From a virus, in IMG/VR virus record IMGVR_UViG_3300043466_002151, positions 1 to 20,528 of that record: DNA of 20,528 nt; one strand, given 5' to 3'. Shown here in pieces: positions 973 through 18,428 of the stretch. A model generated the notes under the pieces. The model was not told the origin of the DNA. It made no database searches and saw only the letters and a program-made list of their open reading frames with translations. Each line of letters opens with the position of its first letter. The stretch's first letter is position 1. Both the position numbers and the translations under genes were made by a program.

Positions 973-3900
973 TTAATACATACCGTAAACAGCAACTTTA
1001 TCACCAGCAAGTGGAGCGTTAGCGAATGTTACAGATGTAGTAGTGATTGTATAATCACCAGCATCTTGTAATAGACCATTCAAGTATACCGCTTGTGAAC
1101 CAGCTCTAAGTTCATTATTGAATGTAAATTCAGTAATAATACCGTTAGCAGTTTCAGCAACACCAGCATTTCTAAAGTAGATATTTGCGAAATCATTTGC
1201 CAATGATAACTCAGCAGATTCTGCACGAGATACTTCAGCAGATGCTGCATTTGATACTTCAGCAAATGAATCAATTGATGTAAGATCTGTATTAGCAATT
1301 AAGTAAGATACTTCAGTTGACAATGCAATCTCTAATGAATCTTCAGCTGATTCAGCTCTTGCAATTTCTGAAGATAATGCCGCCATAATTGAAGCATCAC
1401 CAGAAATACGAGCAGATTCTTCAGCATTAACATCAGCGATTCTGTTAGAGATTTCTGAACTGATTTCATCCATTACATTAACACCACCAACTGTAAGATC
1501 TCCAGAAACTTCAATATTACTATTGAATGTATACTGTCCAGATGTTGGAGCAGCAATTTCCTCTTTCAATCGGATAACATTATTTACAGTGTCAAGTTCA
1601 ATCGTTGTTCCATCAGCATCAGCTAAACCATCAATTTCAGTTGATAAGTCAGCAGCCAATGATGAATCAGCAGAAATACGAGCAGATTCTTCAGCGTTAA
1701 CATCAGCAACTCTGTTTGAAATTTCAGCAGACAAACCTGAGTTCAATGAAGCTTCAGCGCTCATTGCTCTTGATTCTTCAGCATCAACGTCAGCAGTTCT
1801 GTTAACGATTTCAGATGACAACAATGCCATTACAGAAGCATCACCAGATACACGAGCAACTACTTCAGATGAAATTGCAGCTTCACGGCTAGCAACTTCA
1901 GTTGACAAGTCAGTAGCCAAAGATACGTCACCAGAAATACGAGCAGCTTCTTCAATTGATACATCAGCAATACGATCAGCAACCTCAGTTGACAAATCAG
2001 AAGCCAATGAAGCTTCAGCAGATTCTGCACGAGATGCTTCAGCAGACAATGAAGAAGCGGCAGCTGTTGCCAAAGATGTGATTGCACCATTAAGGTCACC
2101 ATCAGCAGATTGGAACGCACCAACGATTTCAGTTAATGAATCCAAAGCAGCAGGATCAACATTAGATACAATATAGTCAATTCTATCTTCCAATGAAGAC
2201 TCAGCAGATTCAGCTCTTGCAGTCTCACTAGAAATTTTAGAATCTAAAGAAGCGTCAGCTACACTCATAGCAGCTTCTAAACTTTCATCACCAACAACTC
2301 TTACAGATGCTTCAGCGTCAATATTGTTTTGTAATGAAGTTTCAGCAACGATAGCTCTTGATTCTTCAGCATCAACATCAGCGATTCTATTAGAAACCTC
2401 AACACTCAATGCAGAAGATAAAGAAGCGTCACCAGATACTCTTGCAGATGCTTCAGCAGATACAGCGTTTGAACGATCAACGATTTCAGTTGATAAACCA
2501 GCAGCGATTGAACCTTCAGCGGAGATTGCACGAGATGTTTCAACAGATACTTTAGCATCCAATGAACCTTCAGCAGAAATAGCTCTAGATTCTTCAGCGT
2601 CAACATCAACGATTCTGTTAGAAATTTCAGCAGATAAATCACCAGCCAATGAAGCTTCAGCACTTGTTGCACGAGATACTTCAACAGATAAACCACTAGC
2701 CAAAGAAGCGTCACCAGATACTCTTGCAGATGCTTCAACACTTACCGCATTTGAACGATCAACGATTTCAGTTGATAAACCAGCTGCGATAGAAGCTTCA
2801 ACAGATTGTGCTCTAGATTCTTCAGCGTCAACATCAACGATTCTGTTAGAAATTTCAGCAGATAAATCATTTGATAATACAGCTTCAACAGACTCAGCTC
2901 TTGATTGTTCAGCATCAACATCAGAAATACGAGCAGAAATTTCAACAGACAACGCATTATCTAAAGAAGCGTTTGCAGTTGATAAGTCAGCAGAAATTTT
3001 ACCTTCTAATGAAACATCACCAGATACTCTTGCAGAAGCTTCAGCGCTTACCGCGTTTGAACGATCAACGATTTCAGTTGAAAGGTTAGCAGCGATAGAA
3101 GCATCACCAGAAATTCTTGAAGAAACTTCAGTAGATACGGCAGCTTCACGATTAGCAACTTCTGTTGATAGATTAGCTTGAACAGAAGCGTCACCAGAAA
3201 TACGAGCAGCTTCTTCTAATGATATAGCAGCTTCTCTACCATCAACTTCAGTTGAAAGGTCAGAAGCTAAAGACGCTTCAGCACTTGTAGCTCTAGAAAC
3301 CTCAGCGGATAATGAAGACGCAGCAGCAGTAGCCAATGAAGTAATAGCTCCGTTCAAATCACCGTCTGCAGATTGGAATGCACCAACGATTTCAGTTAAT
3401 GAATCCAAAGCAGCAGGATCTACATTAGAAACAATGTAATCAATTCTGTCCTCTAATGAAGATTCAGCAGACTCAGCTCTTGCCGTTTCACTAGATACTT
3501 TAGAATCCAATGAAGCATCAGCAGTCGACATTGCGGCTTCTAAACTCTCATCACCAACAACTCTTAAAGATGCTTCAGCATCAATATTGTTTTGTAATGA
3601 ATTTTCAGCAACCATTGCACGAGATTCTTCAGCACTAACATCAGCAATACGGTTTTCTACTTCTGTAGAAAGATCTGCAGCCAATGATTCATCACCAGCA
3701 ACTCTTAAAGAAGCTTCAGTAGATACTGCAGAAGATAAAGACGCGTCTCCAGAAATTCTTGAAGAAACTTCAGCAGATAAATCAACTGATACTGCAACAG
3801 ACAATGAAGCGTCAGCAGAAACAAGTGAAGATTTTTCAACACTCAATGCGGTTGATAAAGAGGCATCACCAGAAATACGGCTAGAAGCTTCAGAAGAAAT

Positions 3901-4047
3901 ATCTCTAGATACTTGCGTATCAATAGATAATACTGTAGAATCTAAACCGGAAATGTCCGCCATAACAAGACCATCTGGGTTGGTAATGGTGGCGTTGGTT
4001 AGGATTAAGTCGGACTGTCTGTCCAATACAATTTTAGTTTGTGCCAT
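973..4047 (-). CDS. Large Ser/Ala/Glu repeat fibre-like protein with C-terminal tail domain
   Basis: 1024 residues. Residues about 1-45 form a non-repetitive head (MAQTKIVLDR..., DISGLDSTVLSID). From about 45 to 900 the protein is built of heptad-like units such as SAEASAR, VSGDASL and LSTEVSNR, a pattern suited to long coiled-coil or rod-like trimeric fibres. Two nearly identical modules of about 107 residues lie at 147-253 and 568-674 and include a distinct non-heptad stretch (DRIDYIVSNVDPAALDSLTE). A short segment near 830-850 (YTFNSNIEVSGDLTVGG) resembles beta-rich fibre spacers. Residues about 956-1024 are a separate C-terminal domain (VYLNGLLQDAGDYTITTTS...) shared with the gene at 4592-5080. 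A tail-fibre or whisker-like structural role is inferred. No enzyme or chaperone motif is seen. The TGATG-free 5' leader has no Shine-Dalgarno sequence. Confidence 0.75.
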   Translation of the reverse strand: MAQTKIVLDRQSDLILTNATITNPDGLVMADISGLDSTVLSIDTQVSRDISSEASSRISGDASLSTALSVEKSSLVSADASLSVAVSVDLSAEVSSRISGDASLSSAVSTEASLRVAGDESLAADLSTEVENRIADVSAEESRAMVAENSLQNNIDAEASLRVVGDESLEAAMSTADASLDSKVSSETARAESAESSLEDRIDYIVSNVDPAALDSLTEIVGAFQSADGDLNGAITSLATAAASSLSAEVSRATSAEASLASDLSTEVDGREAAISLEEAARISGDASVQANLSTEVANREAAVSTEVSSRISGDASIAANLSTEIVDRSNAVSAEASARVSGDVSLEGKISADLSTANASLDNALSVEISARISDVDAEQSRAESVEAVLSNDLSAEISNRIVDVDAEESRAQSVEASIAAGLSTEIVDRSNAVSVEASARVSGDASLASGLSVEVSRATSAEASLAGDLSAEISNRIVDVDAEESRAISAEGSLDAKVSVETSRAISAEGSIAAGLSTEIVDRSNAVSAEASARVSGDASLSSALSVEVSNRIADVDAEESRAIVAETSLQNNIDAEASVRVVGDESLEAAMSVADASLDSKISSETARAESAESSLEDRIDYIVSNVDPAALDSLTEIVGAFQSADGDLNGAITSLATAAASSLSAEASRAESAEASLASDLSTEVADRIADVSIEEAARISGDVSLATDLSTEVASREAAISSEVVARVSGDASVMALLSSEIVNRTADVDAEESRAMSAEASLNSGLSAEISNRVADVNAEESARISADSSLAADLSTEIDGLADADGTTIELDTVNNVIRLKEEIAAPTSGQYTFNSNIEVSGDLTVGGVNVMDEISSEISNRIADVNAEESARISGDASIMAALSSEIARAESAEDSLEIALSTEVSYLIANTDLTSIDSFAEVSNAASAEVSRAESAELSLANDFANIYFRNAGVAETANGIITEFTFNNELRAGSQAVYLNGLLQDAGDYTITTTSVTFANAPLAGDKVAVYGMY
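2026..2346 (-). repeat. 107-residue fibre module, copy B
   Basis: Encodes residues 568-674 of the fibre-like protein. It differs from copy A (3289-3609) at only a few residues, while many third codon positions differ, for example GTA versus GTT in the SNVDP stretch. The copies are spaced exactly 1263 bases (421 codons) apart. Confidence 0.85.
3289..3609 (-). repeat. 107-residue fibre module, copy A
   Basis: Encodes residues 147-253 of the fibre-like protein, from AENSLQNNID through SSLSAEVSRA. It carries the same non-heptad insert as copy B. The protein match is nearly complete but the DNA match is imperfect at silent sites, which points to an old duplication held by selection rather than a fresh one. 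Confidence 0.85.
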
Positions 4048-4073
4048 AATTTTTAATTAAAAAATTTATTAAA

Positions 4074-4080
4074 GATAAAT
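4074..4080 (-). promoter_or_regulatory. Degenerate ATTTATC box ahead of the fibre gene
   Basis: On the minus strand CATTTATC lies about 26 bases before the ATG at 4047. It is one base off the TATTTAT box found ahead of other unit-leading genes in the window. This is a weak call, resting on position and similarity only. Confidence 0.18.
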
Positions 4081-4104
4081 GTGTTCTTTCACACCAAAAG
4101 TTCC

Positions 4105-4122
4105 AACATAGGAGCTTATGTT
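4105..4122. other. Hairpin 1 in fibre-gene leader region
   Basis: AACATA (4105-4110) pairs with TATGTT (4117-4122) over a GGAGCT loop. On the plus strand it is followed directly by more T, like a small intrinsic terminator, but no plus-strand gene lies to its left. On the minus strand it falls in the 5' leader of the fibre gene. It is one of three hairpins in the 237-base gap at 4048-4284, which otherwise shows no gene. Confidence 0.35.
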
Positions 4123-4141
4123 TTTTGATAAATAATAGACC

Positions 4142-4169
4142 AGGATATTACTTTAGGGTAGAATATCCT
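4142..4169. other. Hairpin 2: perfect 8-bp inverted repeat in fibre-gene leader
   Basis: AGGATATT (4142-4149) and AATATCCT (4162-4169) form a perfect inverted repeat around a 12-base spacer. It lies about 95 bases ahead of the fibre-gene start on the minus strand. It could be a leader stem-loop, a terminator stem for the DUF5659-like gene, or an operator. The sequence does not decide. Confidence 0.4.
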
Positions 4170-4222
4170 TTAATATAAATTTAAATTTTTTTAGGAAGAT
4201 TAATATAAGATATAAATAATTG

Positions 4223-4246
4223 TTAGGCAAGAACCTAATCTTTTTT
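4223..4246. terminator. Hairpin 3 with T-run on the plus strand
   Basis: TTAGG (4223-4227) pairs with CCTAA (4234-4238) over a 6-base loop and is followed on the plus strand by TC and six T. On the minus strand it lies 39 bases after the stop of the DUF5659-like gene, where the A-run precedes the stem and the following sequence is only mildly T-rich. It may end leftward transcripts weakly, or block antisense transcripts. Confidence 0.35.
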
Positions 4247-4284
4247 AATATAAATATGCCATAAATTCAAAAAAGACAAAATTT

Positions 4285-4518
4285 TTATAAATTATATAAT
4301 AAATTTTTTAAATTCTTTATTGAATTAGTGTATAATAGCGGTTCACAAGAACCACTCTCATTTAGATATTCATTCACATATTGTGTCAATTCTTCAGTTT
4401 TTTCAAAAACAAAGATTGCTTTATTTTTAATTTTTTCAACAGCCATTTTTGAACCTTTTAATTTTAAGTATGCGGCTAAATATAAATCACTAGTTGTGTA
4501 TTTTAAATTTTGTTCCAT
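4285..4518 (-). CDS. Small DUF5659-like phage protein
   Basis: 77 residues, starting MEQNLKYTTSDLYLAAYLKL. The order is a conserved N-terminal segment (YTTSDLYLAAYLKLKG, 7-22), a basic stretch, a FVFEKTEELTQYVNEYLN segment (about 36-53) and a C-terminal helix (NSIKNLKNLLYNL). This matches the general pattern I know for the DUF5659 family of small phage proteins, which have no assigned reaction. The call is from memory of the family's look and not a search. It is a standalone gene between two structural genes, with 237 bases after it and 73 bases before it. The 73-base leader holds a TATTTAT box about 23 bases before the start. Confidence 0.6.
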   Translation of the reverse strand: MEQNLKYTTSDLYLAAYLKLKGSKMAVEKIKNKAIFVFEKTEELTQYVNEYLNESGSCEPLLYTNSIKNLKNLLYNL

Positions 4519-4541
4519 TGTTTTTTTTTGTTTTACATTTT

Positions 4542-4548
4542 ATAAATA
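4542..4548 (-). promoter_or_regulatory. TATTTAT box ahead of the DUF5659-like gene
   Basis: On the minus strand GCATATTTATA sits about 23 bases before the ATG at 4518, nearly the same sequence and distance as the box at 923-929. An identical 11-base word occurs at 4248-4258, just past the other end of the gene. Read on the plus strand it is an exact TATAAATA, the T4 late-promoter core, but no plus-strand gene follows. Confidence 0.28.
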
Positions 4549-4591
4549 TGCGTTAAACAGCCTTATATGTAATTTTTTTTATTTTTTTTTG

Positions 4592-5080
4592 TTAAGCTCG
4601 ATATGAACACCTAAGTTTCATTCCGATTAATGGTGGTTCAATAAATTTAATTGAGTTAAATTCCATAATGTAATCTTCATTTTCATCTTGAAGAAGTCCA
4701 TTTAAATAAACATGTTCTGATCCAGGAATTGGTGTTTGTGATAATTCAAATGTTTCATTTATACCGTCAATCAAACCTAGTGGTATTTCTTTATCAATGT
4801 GAATTACTTTGGTTAAATCAAGCTCTAACCAATCTGAAATGTCAAATAACCAATCTGCTAGGTTTTTTAATTTATAATATGTATTACCCCCATTTACACC
4901 AACTATCATTCCTGGTCTGCGACGCTCAAACGATATAGAATTTAAATCCTCAATCGTATCAACATTCCTTAAACCATCAATACCATAAATTGGATCAATT
5001 ACAGCATAGGTGTCTTCTGTGTCCATCGGACTAATAAAGCCCATTACACCAATACCACCTATTAGTTCAGAATTTGACAT
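4592..5080 (-). CDS. Tail-associated protein with shared C-terminal domain
   Basis: 162 residues. The N-terminal half contains DTEDTYAVIDPIYGIDGLRN and then DLNSISFERRRPGMIVGVNG (about 45-64), a pattern seen in small phage baseplate or tail-fibre-associated proteins where 'RR.GM.V' is followed by a Tyr-Lys-Leu strand. The C-terminal half, about 103-160, reads GLIDGINETFELSQTPIPGS then EHVYLNGLLQDENEDYI and resembles the C-terminus of the 1024-residue fibre-like protein. The shared domain suggests that both proteins attach to the same structure or use the same receptor-binding fold. It starts 17 bases after the stop of the 1007-residue gene, so the two are probably co-transcribed leftward. No Shine-Dalgarno sequence is seen. 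The exact structural role is unknown. Confidence 0.65.
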   Translation of the reverse strand: MSNSELIGGIGVMGFISPMDTEDTYAVIDPIYGIDGLRNVDTIEDLNSISFERRRPGMIVGVNGGNTYYKLKNLADWLFDISDWLELDLTKVIHIDKEIPLGLIDGINETFELSQTPIPGSEHVYLNGLLQDENEDYIMEFNSIKFIEPPLIGMKLRCSYRA

Positions 5081-12404: not shown

Positions 12405-13106
12405 ATGATTAATATACCAATAACAAAAATTTTATTTCTGGATATTGAAACCGTTGGTGGTTGTCCTAATTTGGAATCTTGCGAAAGATTTAGTCCACAA
12501 ATCGCAGAACAGTTTAATAAATATTTTGACTGGTTCTCAAAAAGATTTCCGGAAGATAACGGATTAACCAGTGATGAGGTTTTTGAGAAACGAACAGCAC
12601 TTGTTCCAGAGTTTGCAAAAATTGTTTGTGTTTCGGTTGCATTTGTCTTGGATAATGGTGAAACAAAAAAACAATCATTCTTTGGTGACGATGAAAAAAA
12701 ATTGTTAACGGATGTTAGATCAGTCCTTGATCGTTGTGAGAAACTCGGATTCTTTTTGTGTGGTCACAATTTAAAGAACTTTGACATACCAATGTTGGCA
12801 AAAAGAATGATTATAAATGGAATTAAACCATCAAAAATTCTTCCGTCATATGATACAAAACCTTGGGAGATAAAAGCGATTGATACCAAAGAAATCTGGC
12901 AATATGGATCCTATAGTTCAATTGGGTCATTAGATTTGTTATGTTCTTGTTTGGATATACCAACACCAAAGGATGGTGAAATCACCGGAGCGAATGTCCA
13001 TAAAGCATATTGGGAAGAACAAAAAATAAAAGAAATAGTGGAATATTGCGAAAAAGATGTTAATGTTCTGATAGATACAATAATGAAATTAAAAAGTTTA
13101 GACTAA
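12405..13106 (+). CDS. PolB-type 3'-5' exonuclease
   Basis: 233 residues. The three DEDD-type exonuclease motifs are in order: Exo I FLDIET with Asp13 and Glu15, Exo II GHNLKNFDIPML (120-131) with Asp127, and Exo III YCEKDVNVL (214-222) with Asp218. This pattern fits the standalone family of 3'-5' exonucleases related to the exonuclease domain of B-family DNA polymerases. The protein is expected to remove nucleotides from 3' ends with two metal ions, during phage DNA replication or repair. It shares one base with the dUTPase start (TAATG), so the two are probably translationally coupled and both act on nucleotides or DNA. No polymerase domain is attached. Confidence 0.82.
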   Translation: MINIPITKILFLDIETVGGCPNLESCERFSPQIAEQFNKYFDWFSKRFPEDNGLTSDEVFEKRTALVPEFAKIVCVSVAFVLDNGETKKQSFFGDDEKKLLTDVRSVLDRCEKLGFFLCGHNLKNFDIPMLAKRMIINGIKPSKILPSYDTKPWEIKAIDTKEIWQYGSYSSIGSLDLLCSCLDIPTPKDGEITGANVHKAYWEEQKIKEIVEYCEKDVNVLIDTIMKLKSLD

Positions 13107-13804
13107 TGGAAAAAAATGACCTTGATGATTTAAATAAAAGTTTGGAAAGTATTGATAATTTATTTTCAAAAGATTTATCAAACGAAGAAGATAATGAGGA
13201 TATTGATCTAAGTTCAATGTTTTCAAACCTTGGGTTTTCATTTGAAGATTTGGAGAAAGGATTTGATGAATACCAACCAACAATGCCTTTAAGATATTCA
13301 ACATCAAATGTTGATGCGGTTGATCCAGAATATGCTTACCCAACCGATTCTGGATTTGATTTATATTCAACAGAAGAAATTACAATTGAATCTTTTGGTA
13401 GAGCGCTTATTCCAACCGGATTACATTTTGATATTCCGGATGGTTATGAAATTCAAGTAAGGTCAAAGAGTGGTTTAGCATTAAAACAAGGACTTATGGT
13501 TTTAAATTCTCCAGGAACGGTTGATTGTTTTTCAGAAAATATGAAAATACTAACAACTGATGGTGAAAAAACAATTAATGAAATTAAAATTGGTGAAATA
13601 GTATATTCATTTAACGAAGAAACTTTAGAAATTGAAAAAGATATAATATCACAAATATTTGATACTGAAAAACAAGAAATTTTAATTATAGAAACTGAAA
13701 GTGGGATTTTAGAAGTAACATCAAATACTGAAGTTTACACAACAAAAGGTATTGTGTTGGCAAAAAATTTAACCGAAAATGATGAAATTATAAACTTTTT
13801 TTAA
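13106..13804 (+). CDS. dut: dUTPase N-terminal part fused to split-intein N-part
   Basis: 232 residues. Residues 1-58 are an acidic extension not found in typical dUTPases. From about 60 come dUTPase motif 1 (DSGFDLYS, 81-88), motif 2 (VRSKSGLALKQG, 118-129) and the first half of motif 3 (NSPGTVD, 134-140), where Asp140 is the predicted catalytic base. Cys141 then begins a split-intein N-part of 92 residues with block A (CFSENMKILTTDGEKTINEI, 141-160) and block B (TSNTEVYTTKGIVLAKNL, 205-222), ending at the stop. The dUTPase cannot work from this product alone: the rest is encoded at 14712-15014. dUTPase hydrolyses dUTP to dUMP and keeps uracil out of phage DNA. The upstream exonuclease gene overlaps by one base. 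No frameshift explains the break, since intein blocks occupy the gap. Confidence 0.93.
   Translation: MEKNDLDDLNKSLESIDNLFSKDLSNEEDNEDIDLSSMFSNLGFSFEDLEKGFDEYQPTMPLRYSTSNVDAVDPEYAYPTDSGFDLYSTEEITIESFGRALIPTGLHFDIPDGYEIQVRSKSGLALKQGLMVLNSPGTVDCFSENMKILTTDGEKTINEIKIGEIVYSFNEETLEIEKDIISQIFDTEKQEILIIETESGILEVTSNTEVYTTKGIVLAKNLTENDEIINFF
13526..13801 (+). other. Split intein N-part (92 residues)
   Basis: Starts with Cys1 and holds block A and block B patterns. In block B the usual T-x-x-H reads T-S-N-T, so the His that normally helps the first acyl shift is replaced by Thr (residue 208 of the ORF). The length is typical of natural split-intein N-parts. Confidence 0.88.
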
Positions 13805-13813
13805 CCAACATAC

Positions 13814-13821
13814 TATTTATC
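13814..13821 (+). promoter_or_regulatory. TATTTATC box ahead of the endonuclease gene
   Basis: Lies in the 36-base gap between the dUTPase N-part stop and the ATG at 13841, about 20 bases before the start. The same word precedes other unit-leading genes at similar distances. It may give the endonuclease its own promoter. Chance is possible in such AT-rich DNA. Confidence 0.25.
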
Positions 13822-13840
13822 AATAAAGATAAAGAGTATT

Positions 13841-14725
13841 ATGGTAAAATGTTTAATTTGTGGTATAGAAAAAGAATTTTCAATTGTGGAACATTTAAAG
13901 TTTGTTCACAATATGAAAAGTGCCGAATATAAAACCTTATATTTTGGGGCAAAAGTCAAAAGTGCAAAACACTCTGAATTATTAAGTGAAAGGGCAAAAA
14001 AAATGTGGTCCAACAATGATTATAAACAAAATCAAATAAAAATTAGAAATATTACACATAACGATCCCGAATTTAAGAAAAAAATGTCAGAAAAACTTAA
14101 AAAAATTCATAATGAAACACCTGAAGTTTTTTCTGGTCTTACAATTTGGAAAAAAAGTGAAGAGTTTAAAACTTGGGTTGTATCTGAAGATCGTAAGAAA
14201 AAAATAAGTGAAACAAGTAAAAAAAGGTGGGAAGATGATGATTACAGAAAAAAAACAATAGAGTCAATTAAAAGAGTTTTAAATGACGGTAGGTGTAATA
14301 AAAGTGTTGAGTATAGGGAAAATATGTCAAAAAAAATATCAGAATTATATAGTTTGGGAATTTTAAAAAATGAAAAAAATAAATACAAAACTGGTGTTTT
14401 CACATCAAAAAAAAATGAGGACTTTATATATTCATCATCATATGAATTGGGTGCTATGGAGTTATTTGACGAAACCGAAGAAATTACTAACTGGACAAAT
14501 AAACACGGTATAAGAATAAAATATTATTACAATGGTTTAAATAGACACTATGTTCCAGATTTTTTAGTTGATTTTAAAAGTGGAAAATCGTATATTTTTG
14601 AAATGAAAGGGTGGAACACTGAAGAGGTTGATGTAAAAAAATATTACGCACTAAAGGAATACCCAAATTATAGAATTTTTTATAGTATAAAAGAATTAAA
14701 AGAATTTATAAATGAAAACAAGTAA
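13841..14725 (+). CDS. Free-standing homing-type endonuclease, PD-(D/E)XK core
   Basis: 294 residues. A C2H2-like finger (C4, C7, H18, H23: CLICGIEKEFSIVEHLKFVH) resembles Ros/MucR-type fingers. Then come several helical repeats of the NUMOD3-like kind: LSERAKKMWSNNDYK (48-62), EFKKKMSEKLKKIHNE (77-92), KKISETSKKRWEDDDYRKKT (120-139) and EYRENMSKKISELY (157-170). The C-terminal nuclease core has E202 (SSSYELGAMELF), PD at 239-240 (HYVPDFLVDF) and E254-x-K256 (YIFEMKGW), a PD-(D/E)XK arrangement as in TnsA-like or T7 endonuclease I-like folds. It is expected to bind and cut dUTPase genes lacking the insert. Its last 14 bases overlap the start of the intein C-part gene. No LAGLIDADG or HNH motif is seen, and it does not show a Vsr-like look. 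Confidence 0.85.
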   Translation: MVKCLICGIEKEFSIVEHLKFVHNMKSAEYKTLYFGAKVKSAKHSELLSERAKKMWSNNDYKQNQIKIRNITHNDPEFKKKMSEKLKKIHNETPEVFSGLTIWKKSEEFKTWVVSEDRKKKISETSKKRWEDDDYRKKTIESIKRVLNDGRCNKSVEYRENMSKKISELYSLGILKNEKNKYKTGVFTSKKNEDFIYSSSYELGAMELFDETEEITNWTNKHGIRIKYYYNGLNRHYVPDFLVDFKSGKSYIFEMKGWNTEEVDVKKYYALKEYPNYRIFYSIKELKEFINENK

Positions 14726-14819
14726 AATTAAAAAAATAACATCTAACATTAAACAAACTTATGATATTACAATATCTAATAATCATAATTTTTTTTGTAA
14801 TAACCATCTAATACATAAT
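14712..14819 (+). other. Split intein C-part (36 residues)
   Basis: Blocks F and G with terminal HN, followed by Cys+1. The length of 36 residues is typical of natural split-intein C-parts. Together with the N-part the intein is 128 residues, the size of minimal inteins lacking an internal endonuclease. Confidence 0.9.
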
Positions 14820-15014
14820 TGTGGATATACCGGTGAAATTAAAGTTATTATATTTAATACAACAAAAGAAACGGTTAAAATTGAGAAGGGACAAAAAGTT
14901 GCACAAGGAGTGATTTGTCCTGTTGTAAGTGGAAAATGGATTAACTTGGTTAGAGTAGAAGAAATAAACGAAAAAAGCAGGGGGGATAATGGATTCGGTT
15001 CTACAGGAATTTAA
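14712..15014 (+). CDS. dut: Split-intein C-part fused to dUTPase C-terminal part
   Basis: 100 residues. Residues 1-36 are the intein C-part: block F TYDITISNNHNFF (16-28) and block G NHLIHN (31-36), with the penultimate His and terminal Asn needed for cyclisation. Cys37 is the +1 nucleophile and opens the C-extein. It completes dUTPase motif 3 (CGYTGEIKVIIFN), then motif 4 (IEKGQKVAQGVICP, 57-70) and motif 5 (RGDNGFGSTG, 90-99). All residues for Cys-type trans-splicing are present in this half. The ATG overlaps the endonuclease stop by 14 bases, so this part is translated separately and probably coupled to the endonuclease. The end overlaps the next gene by 26 bases if that gene starts at 14989. 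After splicing, this half supplies residues 141-204 of the enzyme. Confidence 0.93.
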   Translation: MKTSKIKKITSNIKQTYDITISNNHNFFCNNHLIHNCGYTGEIKVIIFNTTKETVKIEKGQKVAQGVICPVVSGKWINLVRVEEINEKSRGDNGFGSTGI

Positions 15015-15678
15015 CGGTAAAATAAACAGTATTATAATTGACTCTACAATGTCTAAGACTGATTTATGTGAGTTGGGTGTAAAGTACCCAACAGATAAAT
15101 CACCTTACAATACTATTAATCAAGTAACATTGCACGGTAGTGGTCATAGACATCCATATACAGCAGTTTATGATCTATTATTTTCTTCATTGAGATATAA
15201 AAATATAAAACTGGCCGAAATTGGTGTATTAGATAATATGTCTATGTTGTGTTGGAGGGACTACTTTACAAACGCCGAATTGTTTGGTTTTGATTTCAAT
15301 AGTTCATATATTAAAGAAGGCCAAGATTTAAATCTATTTAAAACTACTTATGATTTTATAAATGTTAAAAGTGTAGAATCTATTGAGAATAGTCTTGGTA
15401 AATATGGAAAATACGATATTATTATTGAGGATAGTACTCATGAATTTAATGACCAAATTACGGTTTGTAGTGTTGTACACAAATACTTAAATCCTGGGGG
15501 TATATTAATTGTTGAAGATATTTTTAGACAAGAAAGTGAAGAAAAATATCGAGAAAATCTTTTAGACATTCTTAAATATTATTCATCAATTACTTTTATA
15601 ATAACAGAACATAAATTAAAATATTCACCAAATTGGGATAATGATAAATTATTAATTTTACATAGAAATGATAAATAA
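14989..15678 (+). CDS. Class I SAM-dependent methyltransferase-like protein
   Basis: 229 residues from the ATG at 14989, which is preceded by AGGGGGG, though those bases also encode dUTPase motif 5. A second ATG at 15049 gives a start MSKTDLCELGVKYPTDKSPY that looks like the natural N-terminus of this family, so the start is uncertain. Features include H-rich RHPYTAVYDLLF (54-65), LAEIGVLDNMSML (75-87) as the SAM-binding motif I equivalent, ELFGFDFN (97-104), EDSTHEFNDQI (147-157) and LNPGGILIVEDIF (167-179). The motif I glycine-rich turn is degenerate (IGVLDN). Related proteins modify sugars or antibiotics. In this cluster a sugar O-methyltransferase role is plausible but not shown. Confidence 0.72.
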   Translation: MDSVLQEFNGKINSIIIDSTMSKTDLCELGVKYPTDKSPYNTINQVTLHGSGHRHPYTAVYDLLFSSLRYKNIKLAEIGVLDNMSMLCWRDYFTNAELFGFDFNSSYIKEGQDLNLFKTTYDFINVKSVESIENSLGKYGKYDIIIEDSTHEFNDQITVCSVVHKYLNPGGILIVEDIFRQESEEKYRENLLDILKYYSSITFIITEHKLKYSPNWDNDKLLILHRNDK

Positions 15679-16288
15679 ATTAGAATTATTTTTTGATAAT
15701 GCTGAAAAAGGTATATCAAAAATTGATACATATATAAAAGAACTAGACGGTATGACTGGTATTAAAACCAGACATTTATATAATAACCTTTTAACCATTG
15801 AGGGATCAAAGTATTTAGAAATTGGCACTTGGAAAGGTAGTTCTGTTTGTTCGGCAATGTGTGGAAATTCGTCAAAAATTTTATGTATAGATAATTGGTC
15901 TGAATTTGGGGGACCTAAAAATGAATTTTTAAATAATTTTGAAAAATATAAAGGTAGGAATTTAGCAACCTACATTGAATCTGATTGTTTTAAAATAAAT
16001 CTAAATTCTATCGGTAAATTTAACATTTATTTGTATGATGGTAATCACACATATGAGTCACATTACAAATCCTTAACACATTTTATTGATTCAATGGAAG
16101 ATGAATTTATCTTAATTGTTGATGATTGGAATTGGGAACAGGTTAGATTAGCAACTAATAATTCCATATCAGATTTAAATTTAACAACTTTATGGAGTAA
16201 AGAAATTAGATTAAATAATAATAATGAAACCACTCACGATAAAGATGGGTGGTGGAATGGCATTGCCGTTTTTTTATTAAAGAAATAA
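15668..16288 (+). CDS. Methyltransferase-like protein (Methyltransf_24 type)
   Basis: 206 residues, overlapping the previous gene by 11 bases. The core shows KYLEIGTWKGSSVCSAM (48-64) as SAM-binding motif I with a GxxxGS-like turn, KILCIDNWSEFGG (70-82), NIYLYDGNHTYESHYKSL (119-136) and ILIVDDWNWEQVR (148-160). This order fits the Methyltransf_24 group of class I methyltransferases, in which the acidic D-G-N-H segment lies near the active site. The substrate is unknown. Position among glycosyltransferases suggests a sugar or glycan target. The C-terminus (about 165-206) adds an Asn-rich stretch before ending WWNGIAVFLLKK. Confidence 0.72.
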   Translation: MINKLELFFDNAEKGISKIDTYIKELDGMTGIKTRHLYNNLLTIEGSKYLEIGTWKGSSVCSAMCGNSSKILCIDNWSEFGGPKNEFLNNFEKYKGRNLATYIESDCFKINLNSIGKFNIYLYDGNHTYESHYKSLTHFIDSMEDEFILIVDDWNWEQVRLATNNSISDLNLTTLWSKEIRLNNNNETTHDKDGWWNGIAVFLLKK

Positions 16289-16295
16289 ATTAAAT

Positions 16296-16838
16296 ATGTT
16301 TTTAAATATAATAACACCTTGCTCAAGACCCGAAAATTTATTAAAAATATCGGATTCAATTAATATTCCTAAAGAAAATTATAGATGGATTGTAGTATGT
16401 GATTCAGAATCGTTACCGAATGAAGAACTTATTCCTAAAAATTGTGAAATATATCACCATAAAAATTCAAGTAGCATTTCTGGTAATTCCCAAAGAAATT
16501 ATGCTTTAGATTTGATAATTGATGGTCACATATATTTTAATGATGATGACACAACAATACATAAAGATTTATGGGAAACAATAAAAGATTTAGAGAATGA
16601 TTTCATATCGTTTAAACAATTAAATAATAATGGTGATTTAAGACTTCTTGGTGATGAAATTATTGTTGGGGGTATTGACAGCCACAATTTCATAGTATCA
16701 AAAAATATTGTTGGTCCTAGTCGATGGATTATTAATCGTTATGATGCTGATGGTTATTTTGCTCAAGAATGTTATTTAAAATCCTTAAATAGTGTTTATT
16801 TTGATAAAGTATTATCAATTTATAACACACTTAGATAA
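16296..16838 (+). CDS. GT-A glycosyltransferase-like protein
   Basis: 180 residues, short for the family. It starts NIITPCSRPENLLKISDSIN (4-23), the beginning of a GT2/GT43-like fold, with a strand at WIVVCDSE (31-38), a Gly/Asn stretch GNSQRNYALD (63-72) and the metal-binding motif HIYFNDDDTT (78-87). Asp83-85 are the likely DxD equivalent that holds the metal and sugar nucleotide. The acceptor side is at about 120-175 (IIVGGIDSHNFIVSKN then RWIINRYDADGYFA). It begins 7 bases after the previous stop. A complete small GT-A enzyme is likely, with unknown donor. Confidence 0.7.
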   Translation: MFLNIITPCSRPENLLKISDSINIPKENYRWIVVCDSESLPNEELIPKNCEIYHHKNSSSISGNSQRNYALDLIIDGHIYFNDDDTTIHKDLWETIKDLENDFISFKQLNNNGDLRLLGDEIIVGGIDSHNFIVSKNIVGPSRWIINRYDADGYFAQECYLKSLNSVYFDKVLSIYNTLR

Positions 16839-16861
16839 AATTTTATTGGGAAAAAATCAAA

Positions 16862-17542
16862 ATGAAAAAAAATTTAATAATAACGCCAACGGGTAAAGAT
16901 TCGTTATATAATAATTGGTTGGGATTAGATGATAGTTTTGACATTATATTTCTGTGTTACGAAAATAACGATTTCCATACTGAATTAAAAAATAAAGGGT
17001 TTAACTCTTTTAATGTTAAAGGTGAAAAGTGGAAAATTATTAAAAATTTTTTAAATGAAAACAAAGAATTAATAGAAAATTATGAGATTTTTTGGTTCCC
17101 GGATGACGATTTAAATATCGATTCAAAATCAATAAATAAACTTTTTGATTTACACAAGAAATTTAATTTATTATTATCTCAACCATCAGCTTCTGGATAT
17201 ACATCACATAAAATCACAAATAAAAAAAATGATAGTATTTTAAGATTTACAAATTTTGTTGAAATTATGTGCCCAATGATGAGTAAAGAGTGTTTAGTAT
17301 CATTAATTGATACTTTTGATTATTCTGAATCTGGTTGGGGTTTAGATTTACTATGGCCAAAAATTTTAAATTACCCAAAAGATAAAATAGCAATTATTGA
17401 TGAGATTGAGATTATACACACAAAACCTGTTGGTGGGGATTACGAAGGCAGATTTAGTAAGTCACCGCAAGAGGATTTATTTTTTTTAATGAAAAAATAT
17501 AATTTAAATTTTAATTTCAAAGAATACGAATTAATTAAATAA
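16862..17542 (+). CDS. DUF707-like putative glycosyltransferase
   Basis: 226 residues. FWFPDDDLNID (77-87) gives Asp81-83 as a DxD-like motif. It is followed by LLLSQPSASGYTSHKIT (103-119), LRFTNFVEIMCPMMS (127-141), SGWGLDLLWP (157-166) and AIIDEIEIIHTKP (177-189). This order matches the pattern of DUF707 proteins, which are thought to have a GT-A fold. The family's reaction is not known to me. It starts 23 bases after the previous gene and 4 bases before the next, so it is part of the same run. No signal or membrane segment is seen. Confidence 0.7.
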   Translation: MKKNLIITPTGKDSLYNNWLGLDDSFDIIFLCYENNDFHTELKNKGFNSFNVKGEKWKIIKNFLNENKELIENYEIFWFPDDDLNIDSKSINKLFDLHKKFNLLLSQPSASGYTSHKITNKKNDSILRFTNFVEIMCPMMSKECLVSLIDTFDYSESGWGLDLLWPKILNYPKDKIAIIDEIEIIHTKPVGGDYEGRFSKSPQEDLFFLMKKYNLNFNFKEYELIK

Positions 17543-17546
17543 TAAT

Positions 17547-18428
17547 ATGAAAAAAATTGATGTATGCCTAAATGTTTTTGGTAAACCGTACCAAACAATA
17601 ATAACACTAAAAAGTTTATTAAAACATTCTTCACAACATATTGATAAAATATATCTTATTGAAGAAGAAAAACAACCTAATGATTACAATTTTGAACTAA
17701 TTAAAAATGAAGTAAATTACGATGGTTTAATCAGATTTAAACCAAAACAATTTTTATGGATTTTAGTGACCGATTTTAACCTATACCACAAAGATAATGA
17801 CTATAAAATGTCATTAAGATATGAGTATGGGTTAAACAATACTGATAAGTCTCATATGTTATTAATACACAATGATGTTCTTTTCCAAAAAGACATTGTT
17901 GGTGAATTATTAAACGAAGATGAAAATTTATTTGGTATTGGTAGAGTTGGTCAGTGTTGGAATTGTCCACTATTTTCTGAAAACTTATGTAGTGGTGATA
18001 GATTAGAAAAAAATTTAGTTAATAATTTTAACTATGACGACATCTCAAAACTTGTTGATAAATATAATACATCAAGGACTTATATTAAAAAAAATCATAT
18101 TGACACAAAAAAACCATTACCACTACCAGAATGTAGAATAAATGAATGGTGTATGTTAATAAATGTTGACTTATATAGAAAAGAGGTTTTGGAAGATAAA
18201 AGAGTTGTACCTTTTGGTGGTTATTTTATAATGGACATTGGTGATTTGTGGTTTAAACAAATGGTTGATTTAGGTTATAAATTTAAAAATTTTGATATAG
18301 ACAAATACATAACACACGCGTATTTTTCCGATACGGGTAATGGTCACCAATCACTTTTTAATGCAAAAAAATATGAACTAGAAGAGGTCGAAGCTAAAAA
18401 ACATTATGAAAAAAATTTTAAAGAATGA
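17547..18428 (+). CDS. GT-A/GT2-like glycosyltransferase
   Basis: 293 residues. It opens KKIDVCLNVFGKPYQTIITL (2-21), a GT2-like start, with KIYLIEEE (34-41), HMLLIHNDVLF (103-113), where His-Asn-Asp stands in for the DxD motif, and a Cys cluster in GQCWNCPLFSENLC (135-148). A later segment INEWCMLINVDLYRKEVLED and GGYFIMDIGDLWFKQMVDLG resembles the acceptor part. The Cys cluster is unusual in this fold and may bind a metal or be structural. It overlaps the next gene by ATGA, so the two are co-translated. Substrates are unknown. Confidence 0.65.
   Translation: MKKIDVCLNVFGKPYQTIITLKSLLKHSSQHIDKIYLIEEEKQPNDYNFELIKNEVNYDGLIRFKPKQFLWILVTDFNLYHKDNDYKMSLRYEYGLNNTDKSHMLLIHNDVLFQKDIVGELLNEDENLFGIGRVGQCWNCPLFSENLCSGDRLEKNLVNNFNYDDISKLVDKYNTSRTYIKKNHIDTKKPLPLPECRINEWCMLINVDLYRKEVLEDKRVVPFGGYFIMDIGDLWFKQMVDLGYKFKNFDIDKYITHAYFSDTGNGHQSLFNAKKYELEEVEAKKHYEKNFKE

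Follow-up and report, generated by a model that had tools for sequence, protein, structure and literature searches.

The 20,528-bp virus record IMGVR_UViG_3300043466_002151 of IMG/VR (the window, whose coordinates are used throughout) carries on its plus strand a dUTPase gene in two pieces, with a nuclease gene lodged between them, and the question raised by this locus is which lineage of nuclease this is and whether it belongs to a mobile element. Genes of this kind, which a split intein fractures and whose halves are separated by a free-standing nuclease gene, were reportedly described by Dassa et al. in 2009 (doi 10.1093/nar/gkp095). Their nuclease family is given as EDxHD/Vsr in PMC12350094. 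An earlier note on this DNA proposed that a different nuclease lineage had invaded the same kind of niche, and our results bear this out, as the predicted fold of the nuclease domain is TnsA-like and no profile match to three Vsr-type nucleases extends over it, so that neither of the two outcomes named in the note as refuting it was observed. In its arrangement the locus is a fractured gene, in its population pattern it is a homing element, and its nuclease has a TnsA-like fold. Taken as a whole it is very probably a composite homing element that resides in the dUTPase gene of a phage.

Three open reading frames (ORFs) follow one another here. The first (13106-13804) joins the N-terminal part of the dUTPase to an intein N half (IntN), the last (14712-15014) begins with the intein C half (IntC) and continues into the C-terminal part of the dUTPase, and the nuclease occupies an ORF of its own between the intein halves. 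Matches in both Pfam and PHROG confirm that the interrupted gene is a dUTPase, and the nuclease ORF is present as described, with 294 codons for amino acids. The features, with expectation values (E) where these apply, are as follows.

13106-13525, plus strand: N-terminal part of dUTPase (N-extein), ending in ...NSPGTVD (Pfam dUTPase E 4.3e-9; PHROG dUTPase E 4.7e-27)
13526-13804, plus strand: split-intein N half, 92 residues beginning with Cys1, and stop codon (Intein_splicing E 7e-4; PT-HINT E 3e-5; TIGR01445 E 9e-4)
13526-14819, plus strand: mobile cassette of 1294 bp, missing in empty-site alleles
13804-13845, plus strand: hairpin pairing a Shine-Dalgarno-like stretch and the nuclease ATG (-12.8 kcal/mol, z -4.5)
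13841-14725, plus strand: nuclease gene (ORF, homologue alignment, AlphaFold model, fold match, selection analysis)
13850-13909, plus strand: C2H2-type finger, C4/C7/H18/H23 (homologue alignment and model)
13964-14356, plus strand: helical middle region (residues 42-172) in which K-K-[IM]-S units recur; no NUMOD3 match (model, profile comparison, motif count)
14387-14722, plus strand: predicted TnsA-like PD-(D/E)XK nuclease domain (E202 at 14444-14446, PD at 14555-14560, E254/K256 at 14600-14608)
14712-14819, plus strand: split-intein C half, 36 residues ending in His-Asn, overlapping the nuclease end (Intein_splicing E 0.0015)
14820-15014, plus strand: C-terminal part of dUTPase (C-extein), beginning with Cys-Gly-Tyr (Pfam dUTPase E 5e-13)

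The break point falls in a conserved dUTPase motif (...NSPGTVD / x GYTGE, or GTVD/x-GY for short), and the intein junctions have Cys as first residue, His-Asn as last and Cys as the +1 extein residue. The break in the dUTPase is explained by the intein, and the dUTPase halves are predicted to be rejoined by trans-splicing. A further 34 IMG/VR contigs (a few of them incomplete) have this block in the dUTPase gene, at the same codon; they represent about 13 further lineages and bring the total to about 14. IntN retains 65-80% identity in close relatives, and the nuclease is distant in three of the contigs, L124 (42%), L125 (31%) and L126 (32%). At about 75 loci the dUTPase gene is uninterrupted; the residue at +1 is Gln in 34 of the 50 distinct uninterrupted dUTPases and otherwise Asn, Ser, Glu, Phe or, once, Cys, whereas fractured dUTPases have Cys there, or Ser in L124 and L125. 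The sole uninterrupted Cys, in L021 (PGTIDCGYLG; match at 4187-4252), may be what a precise loss of the cassette left behind. Bacterial genomes yielded no full-length relative of the nuclease, with short matches inside its nuclease domain only, and a phage collection gave partial matches in six records, mostly to the nuclease domain, and none with L126 as query. A five-member alignment of distant sequences (A1) held no stretch conserved enough for scanning.

Evidence that the cassette has moved comes from several sources. On the tree of dUTPase exteins, nine changes of fractured state are required, at least five of them on well-supported branches, and the distribution of the cassette is patchy among close relatives. 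Three pairs of near neighbours (L015/L074, L016/L043 and L017/L064) hold one filled and one empty allele, and alignment of filled with empty alleles reveals a clean insertion of 1293-1294 bp placed 3' of the GTVD codon, with the following codon becoming TGT. When L016 is compared with L018, identity is 87-96% throughout the cassette while the flanks are 65-84% identical or unrelated, and synonymous divergence is 0.32-0.40 in the cassette against 1.2-2.3 in the dUTPase. The pair L099/L106 behaves likewise, its cassette being less diverged than its dUTPase (across both pairs the synonymous divergence of the cassette is 0.3-0.65 against about 1.2-2.3), and L098/L099 points in the same direction. 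These comparisons establish by computation that the cassette has moved horizontally, and, together with the low dN/dS of the nuclease given below, its behaviour is that of an active homing element.

The hairpin between the IntN stop codon and the nuclease start may place this element under translational control. The cost of opening the nuclease start exceeds that of all 201 control gene starts from related loci, and the hairpin is kept in 10 close-group relatives, with 91.5% of cells paired versus 32-48% when the structure is slid. In L124 and L125 the sequence is unrelated, yet the start-occluding hairpins are as strong or stronger (z -6.5 and -4.6), and L128, a relative discussed below, has a moderate one. 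Hairpins over the ribosome-binding site control the T4-family homing genes I-TevI, I-TevII, I-TevIII, segB and mobE (PMC2988022), and by analogy with these it is likely that translation of the window nuclease is regulated by its hairpin. Unlike the T4-family hairpins, that of the window also pairs the AUG, and no late promoter was identified inside it. Because the IntC ORF overlaps the nuclease end by 14 nt (14712-14725) in most lineages, any repression of the nuclease might extend to the C half of the dUTPase through translational coupling.

Several observations weigh against this interpretation of the locus. Covariation in the close-group hairpin is not above that of shuffles, because the stretch is so conserved, and the case for the hairpin thus rests on its stability, its occlusion of the start and its recurrence in distant members, one of which (L126) has no significant start hairpin. 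Intein block B (13718-13741) reads T-S-N-T in the window and T-x-N-T/S in all 14 lineages, and thus is without the usual His (inteins usually have T-x-x-H), so that splicing may be slow or unusual. Diverged tracts flank the insertion in L015/L074, as predicted by co-conversion during break repair (180 bp upstream and 120 bp downstream, with 14% mismatches versus 3% further out, p 8e-8), and this pair speaks for the element; against it count that the bounds were set after inspecting the data, that such a tract is weak in L016/L043 (p 0.04) and that none was seen in L017/L064. Finally, the cassette and flanks of the window are equally diverged from those of L001, and this pair thus shows no recent transfer.

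A first competing explanation holds that mobility belongs to the nuclease gene by itself, independent of the intein halves. It draws on L128, where the dUTPase gene (3504-3947) is intact and a nuclease of this family stands by itself 53 nt downstream; that nuclease shares 59% identity with the one of L126, and no intein is present (the two genes span 3504-4867). We nonetheless consider it unlikely, as every interrupted dUTPase examined has the nuclease together with both intein halves, none of them bears an intein without the nuclease, and identity is uniformly high over the whole cassette. L128 fits the collaborative homing described in PMC2988022, since its nuclease is already tied to the gene and could later be joined with an intein, though from this single case gain of the intein cannot be told from loss.

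A cassette that was formerly mobile and now carries an inactive nuclease would be in keeping with the window/L001 pair, which shows no recent transfer, but is made distinctly improbable by the protein itself. The catalytic residues E202, P239-D240 and E254-x-K256 lie exactly where the earlier note had put them, and together with C4, C7, H18, H23 and S199 they are invariant in 15 homologues that range down to 27% identity. The ratio of nonsynonymous to synonymous divergence (dN/dS) of the nuclease is 0.10-0.22, from which we conclude that it is under purifying selection, and the pattern of catalytic and finger residues is thus not a product of chance. The near-identical filled and empty alleles also argue against a fossil.

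An AlphaFold model built on an alignment of 15 sequences is confident for the finger (predicted local distance difference test score, pLDDT, about 90), less certain for the helical middle and very confident for the C-terminal nuclease domain (pLDDT about 95). The claim of a Ros/MucR-like finger holds in its spacing, C-x2-C-x10-H-x4-H, which is invariant, and in the strand-strand-helix unit of the model, but the ROS_MUCR match stays under the Pfam cut-off (E 0.06 for the window protein, 2.6e-4 for L124). NUMOD3-like repeats had also been proposed for the middle region, and here the helices are real and a K-K-[IM]-S motif recurs at residues 79, 119 and 159 (3 matches versus 0.5 in shuffles, p 0.01, for a motif picked post hoc), but NUMOD3 itself finds no support in the window protein, with no Pfam match at E<=1 and an insignificant profile comparison (probability 8%). 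DNA would be recognized by the finger and the helical middle. In the modelled nuclease domain E202 sits on helix 200-211, the PD leads into strand 241-245, and the ExK glutamate (E254) lies on strand 250-255 with K256 just beyond it.

The modelled core is that of a PD-(D/E)XK nuclease, and TnsA takes the first three places among its fold matches in the PDB (E 2e-4 to 7e-4, probability 1.00). Among viral predicted structures the best match is the endonuclease of Bacillus phage Moonbeam, followed by endonuclease I-like, TnsA-like and head-completion nucleases. The window protein scores 17.9 bits against Pfam TnsA-like_N, below the cut-off of 26.5 bits that four relatives (L124, L133, L004 and Moonbeam) exceed. 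Sequence and model together support the assignment of the window nuclease to a TnsA-like PD-(D/E)XK type, unlike the Vsr-related type of fractured genes. A PDB sequence profile search returned spurious odorant-binding matches and a weak Ros finger (E 0.6), and weak Pfam matches to sigma-54, GerD and nitrile hydratase, as well as an NCBIfam match to HmuQ, were set aside as chance.

An ordinary phage nuclease, either a Holliday-junction resolvase or a head-completion enzyme, might have settled here and kept a role in DNA processing rather than homing; this would suit the profile matches to phage head-closure (phrog_218, E 1.5e-9) and to resolvase families, along with Phage_endo_I matches in relatives. 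Such a role is very unlikely for a gene that is flanked by intein halves at a single fixed site, has a patchy distribution, travels with the cassette and encodes a finger and a long helical middle typical of homing nucleases. Membership in the Vsr-related (EDxHD) family of the described fractured genes is scarcely credible and already largely refuted, since, despite a gene arrangement identical in kind and a finger common to the EDxHD nuclease of L130, an hhalign comparison of the 15 family members with three EDxHD/Vsr-like phage nucleases from related contigs aligned only residues 1-45, that is the finger (the row aligned there being L130), the motif is PD...ExK and the best folds are TnsA.

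The common finger suggests that DNA-binding parts have been swapped between nuclease families. The contrast drawn earlier between Vsr and PD-(D/E)XK remains valid for family and type of active site but not for fold, as Vsr is itself a variant of the PD-(D/E)XK superfamily in which (D/E)XK has turned into FxH (PMC551604); the window nuclease and Vsr are thus two families in one superfamily. The L130 gene (4001-5593) encodes an EDxHD/Vsr-like nuclease that combines the same N-terminal finger with NUMOD3 and, at the C-terminal end, a weak Mom-like match (E 0.0014).

For the composite homing element, computation shows the anatomy, the fold family, the recurrence at one site, the empty sites, the horizontal movement, the purifying selection and the hairpin, and we infer cleavage and its exact site, trans-splicing and translational repression from the anatomy and from the precedents named here. 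The nuclease made from the fractured gene would recognize the uninterrupted dut gene of a co-infecting phage at or near the GTVD/GY codons by means of its finger and helical middle, and would cut it with its C-terminal TnsA-like PD-(D/E)XK domain. Recombination repair would then copy the 1.29-kb cassette and some flanking sequence into the break, changing the +1 codon to Cys. The half-genes would be translated separately and the dUTPase halves joined by the split intein, so that invasion would do little harm, and the hairpin, which covers both the start codon and the ribosome-binding site, would hold nuclease translation low on read-through mRNA.

Comparison with known systems places the element among several precedents. 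With the fractured genes it shares an enzyme gene split by a split intein, a nuclease gene between the halves, a phage setting and a target in DNA metabolism, and it departs from them, by description, in having a TnsA-like PD-(D/E)XK rather than a Vsr-related nuclease and dUTPase as its target. TnsA of Tn7 (PDB 1t0f and 1f1z) is the best structural match and has an active site of the same E...D...E-x-K type, but the window nuclease is without transposon partners and has a finger, a helical DNA-binding part and a homing-type distribution. The Moonbeam endonuclease (AIW03424) is free-standing and 35% identical in its nuclease domain, but its N-terminal part is different and has a Pfam NUMOD3 match, and its gene does not lie in a fractured gene. 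A 2014 review (PMC3943268) counts PD-(D/E)xK among the homing families, with I-Ssp6803I as its representative, and describes the type as compact and multimerizing, in a group I intron setting. The window nuclease resembles I-Ssp6803I in being a putative homing nuclease of the same superfamily and differs in its modular build of finger plus helices and its residence in a split intein; I-Ssp6803I gave no match in the PDB sequence search and was absent from the best 50 fold matches. A modular TnsA-like nuclease in a split intein thus appears to be new, although it is set apart from the cases of Dassa et al. 2009 by description only.

We are evenly divided on a broader proposition, namely that these proteins form a new family of dUTPase-specialized TnsA-like PD-(D/E)XK homing nucleases, which occur both free-standing (L128) and inside a split intein and share their finger with Vsr-like homing nucleases, and of which the L128 type could be a pre-adapted precursor that at one time acquired an intein through collaborative homing. 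The locus itself shows that the fractured-gene niche is accessible to a nuclease lineage besides the Vsr-related one. It also offers a rare resource for homing studies, namely natural alleles that are nearly identical but for the presence or absence of the element, together with a candidate co-conversion tract and, at the same gene, a relative that has no intein. The passage from a free-standing to an intein-borne nuclease can thereby be tested directly. Both the nuclease and the split intein with its odd block B are candidate tools as well.

Other elements of a similar nature were seen in these contigs. A GIY-YIG gene with NUMOD3 lies upstream of an exonuclease gene in L016 (3092-3925) and L035 (3161-3994), and a Vsr-like nuclease with NUMOD3 lies nearby in L017 (1796-2701) and L023 (1777-2718). 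In L019 (4389-6318) a split intein interrupts a helicase gene, here without a nuclease ORF separating the halves, and L125 has in its helicase an intein N half related to the helicase intein of L019. Downstream of the dUTPase in the window (14989-18428), methyltransferase- and glycosyltransferase-like genes that differ wholly between close relatives (window versus L001) make up a hypervariable region adjoining the homing site.
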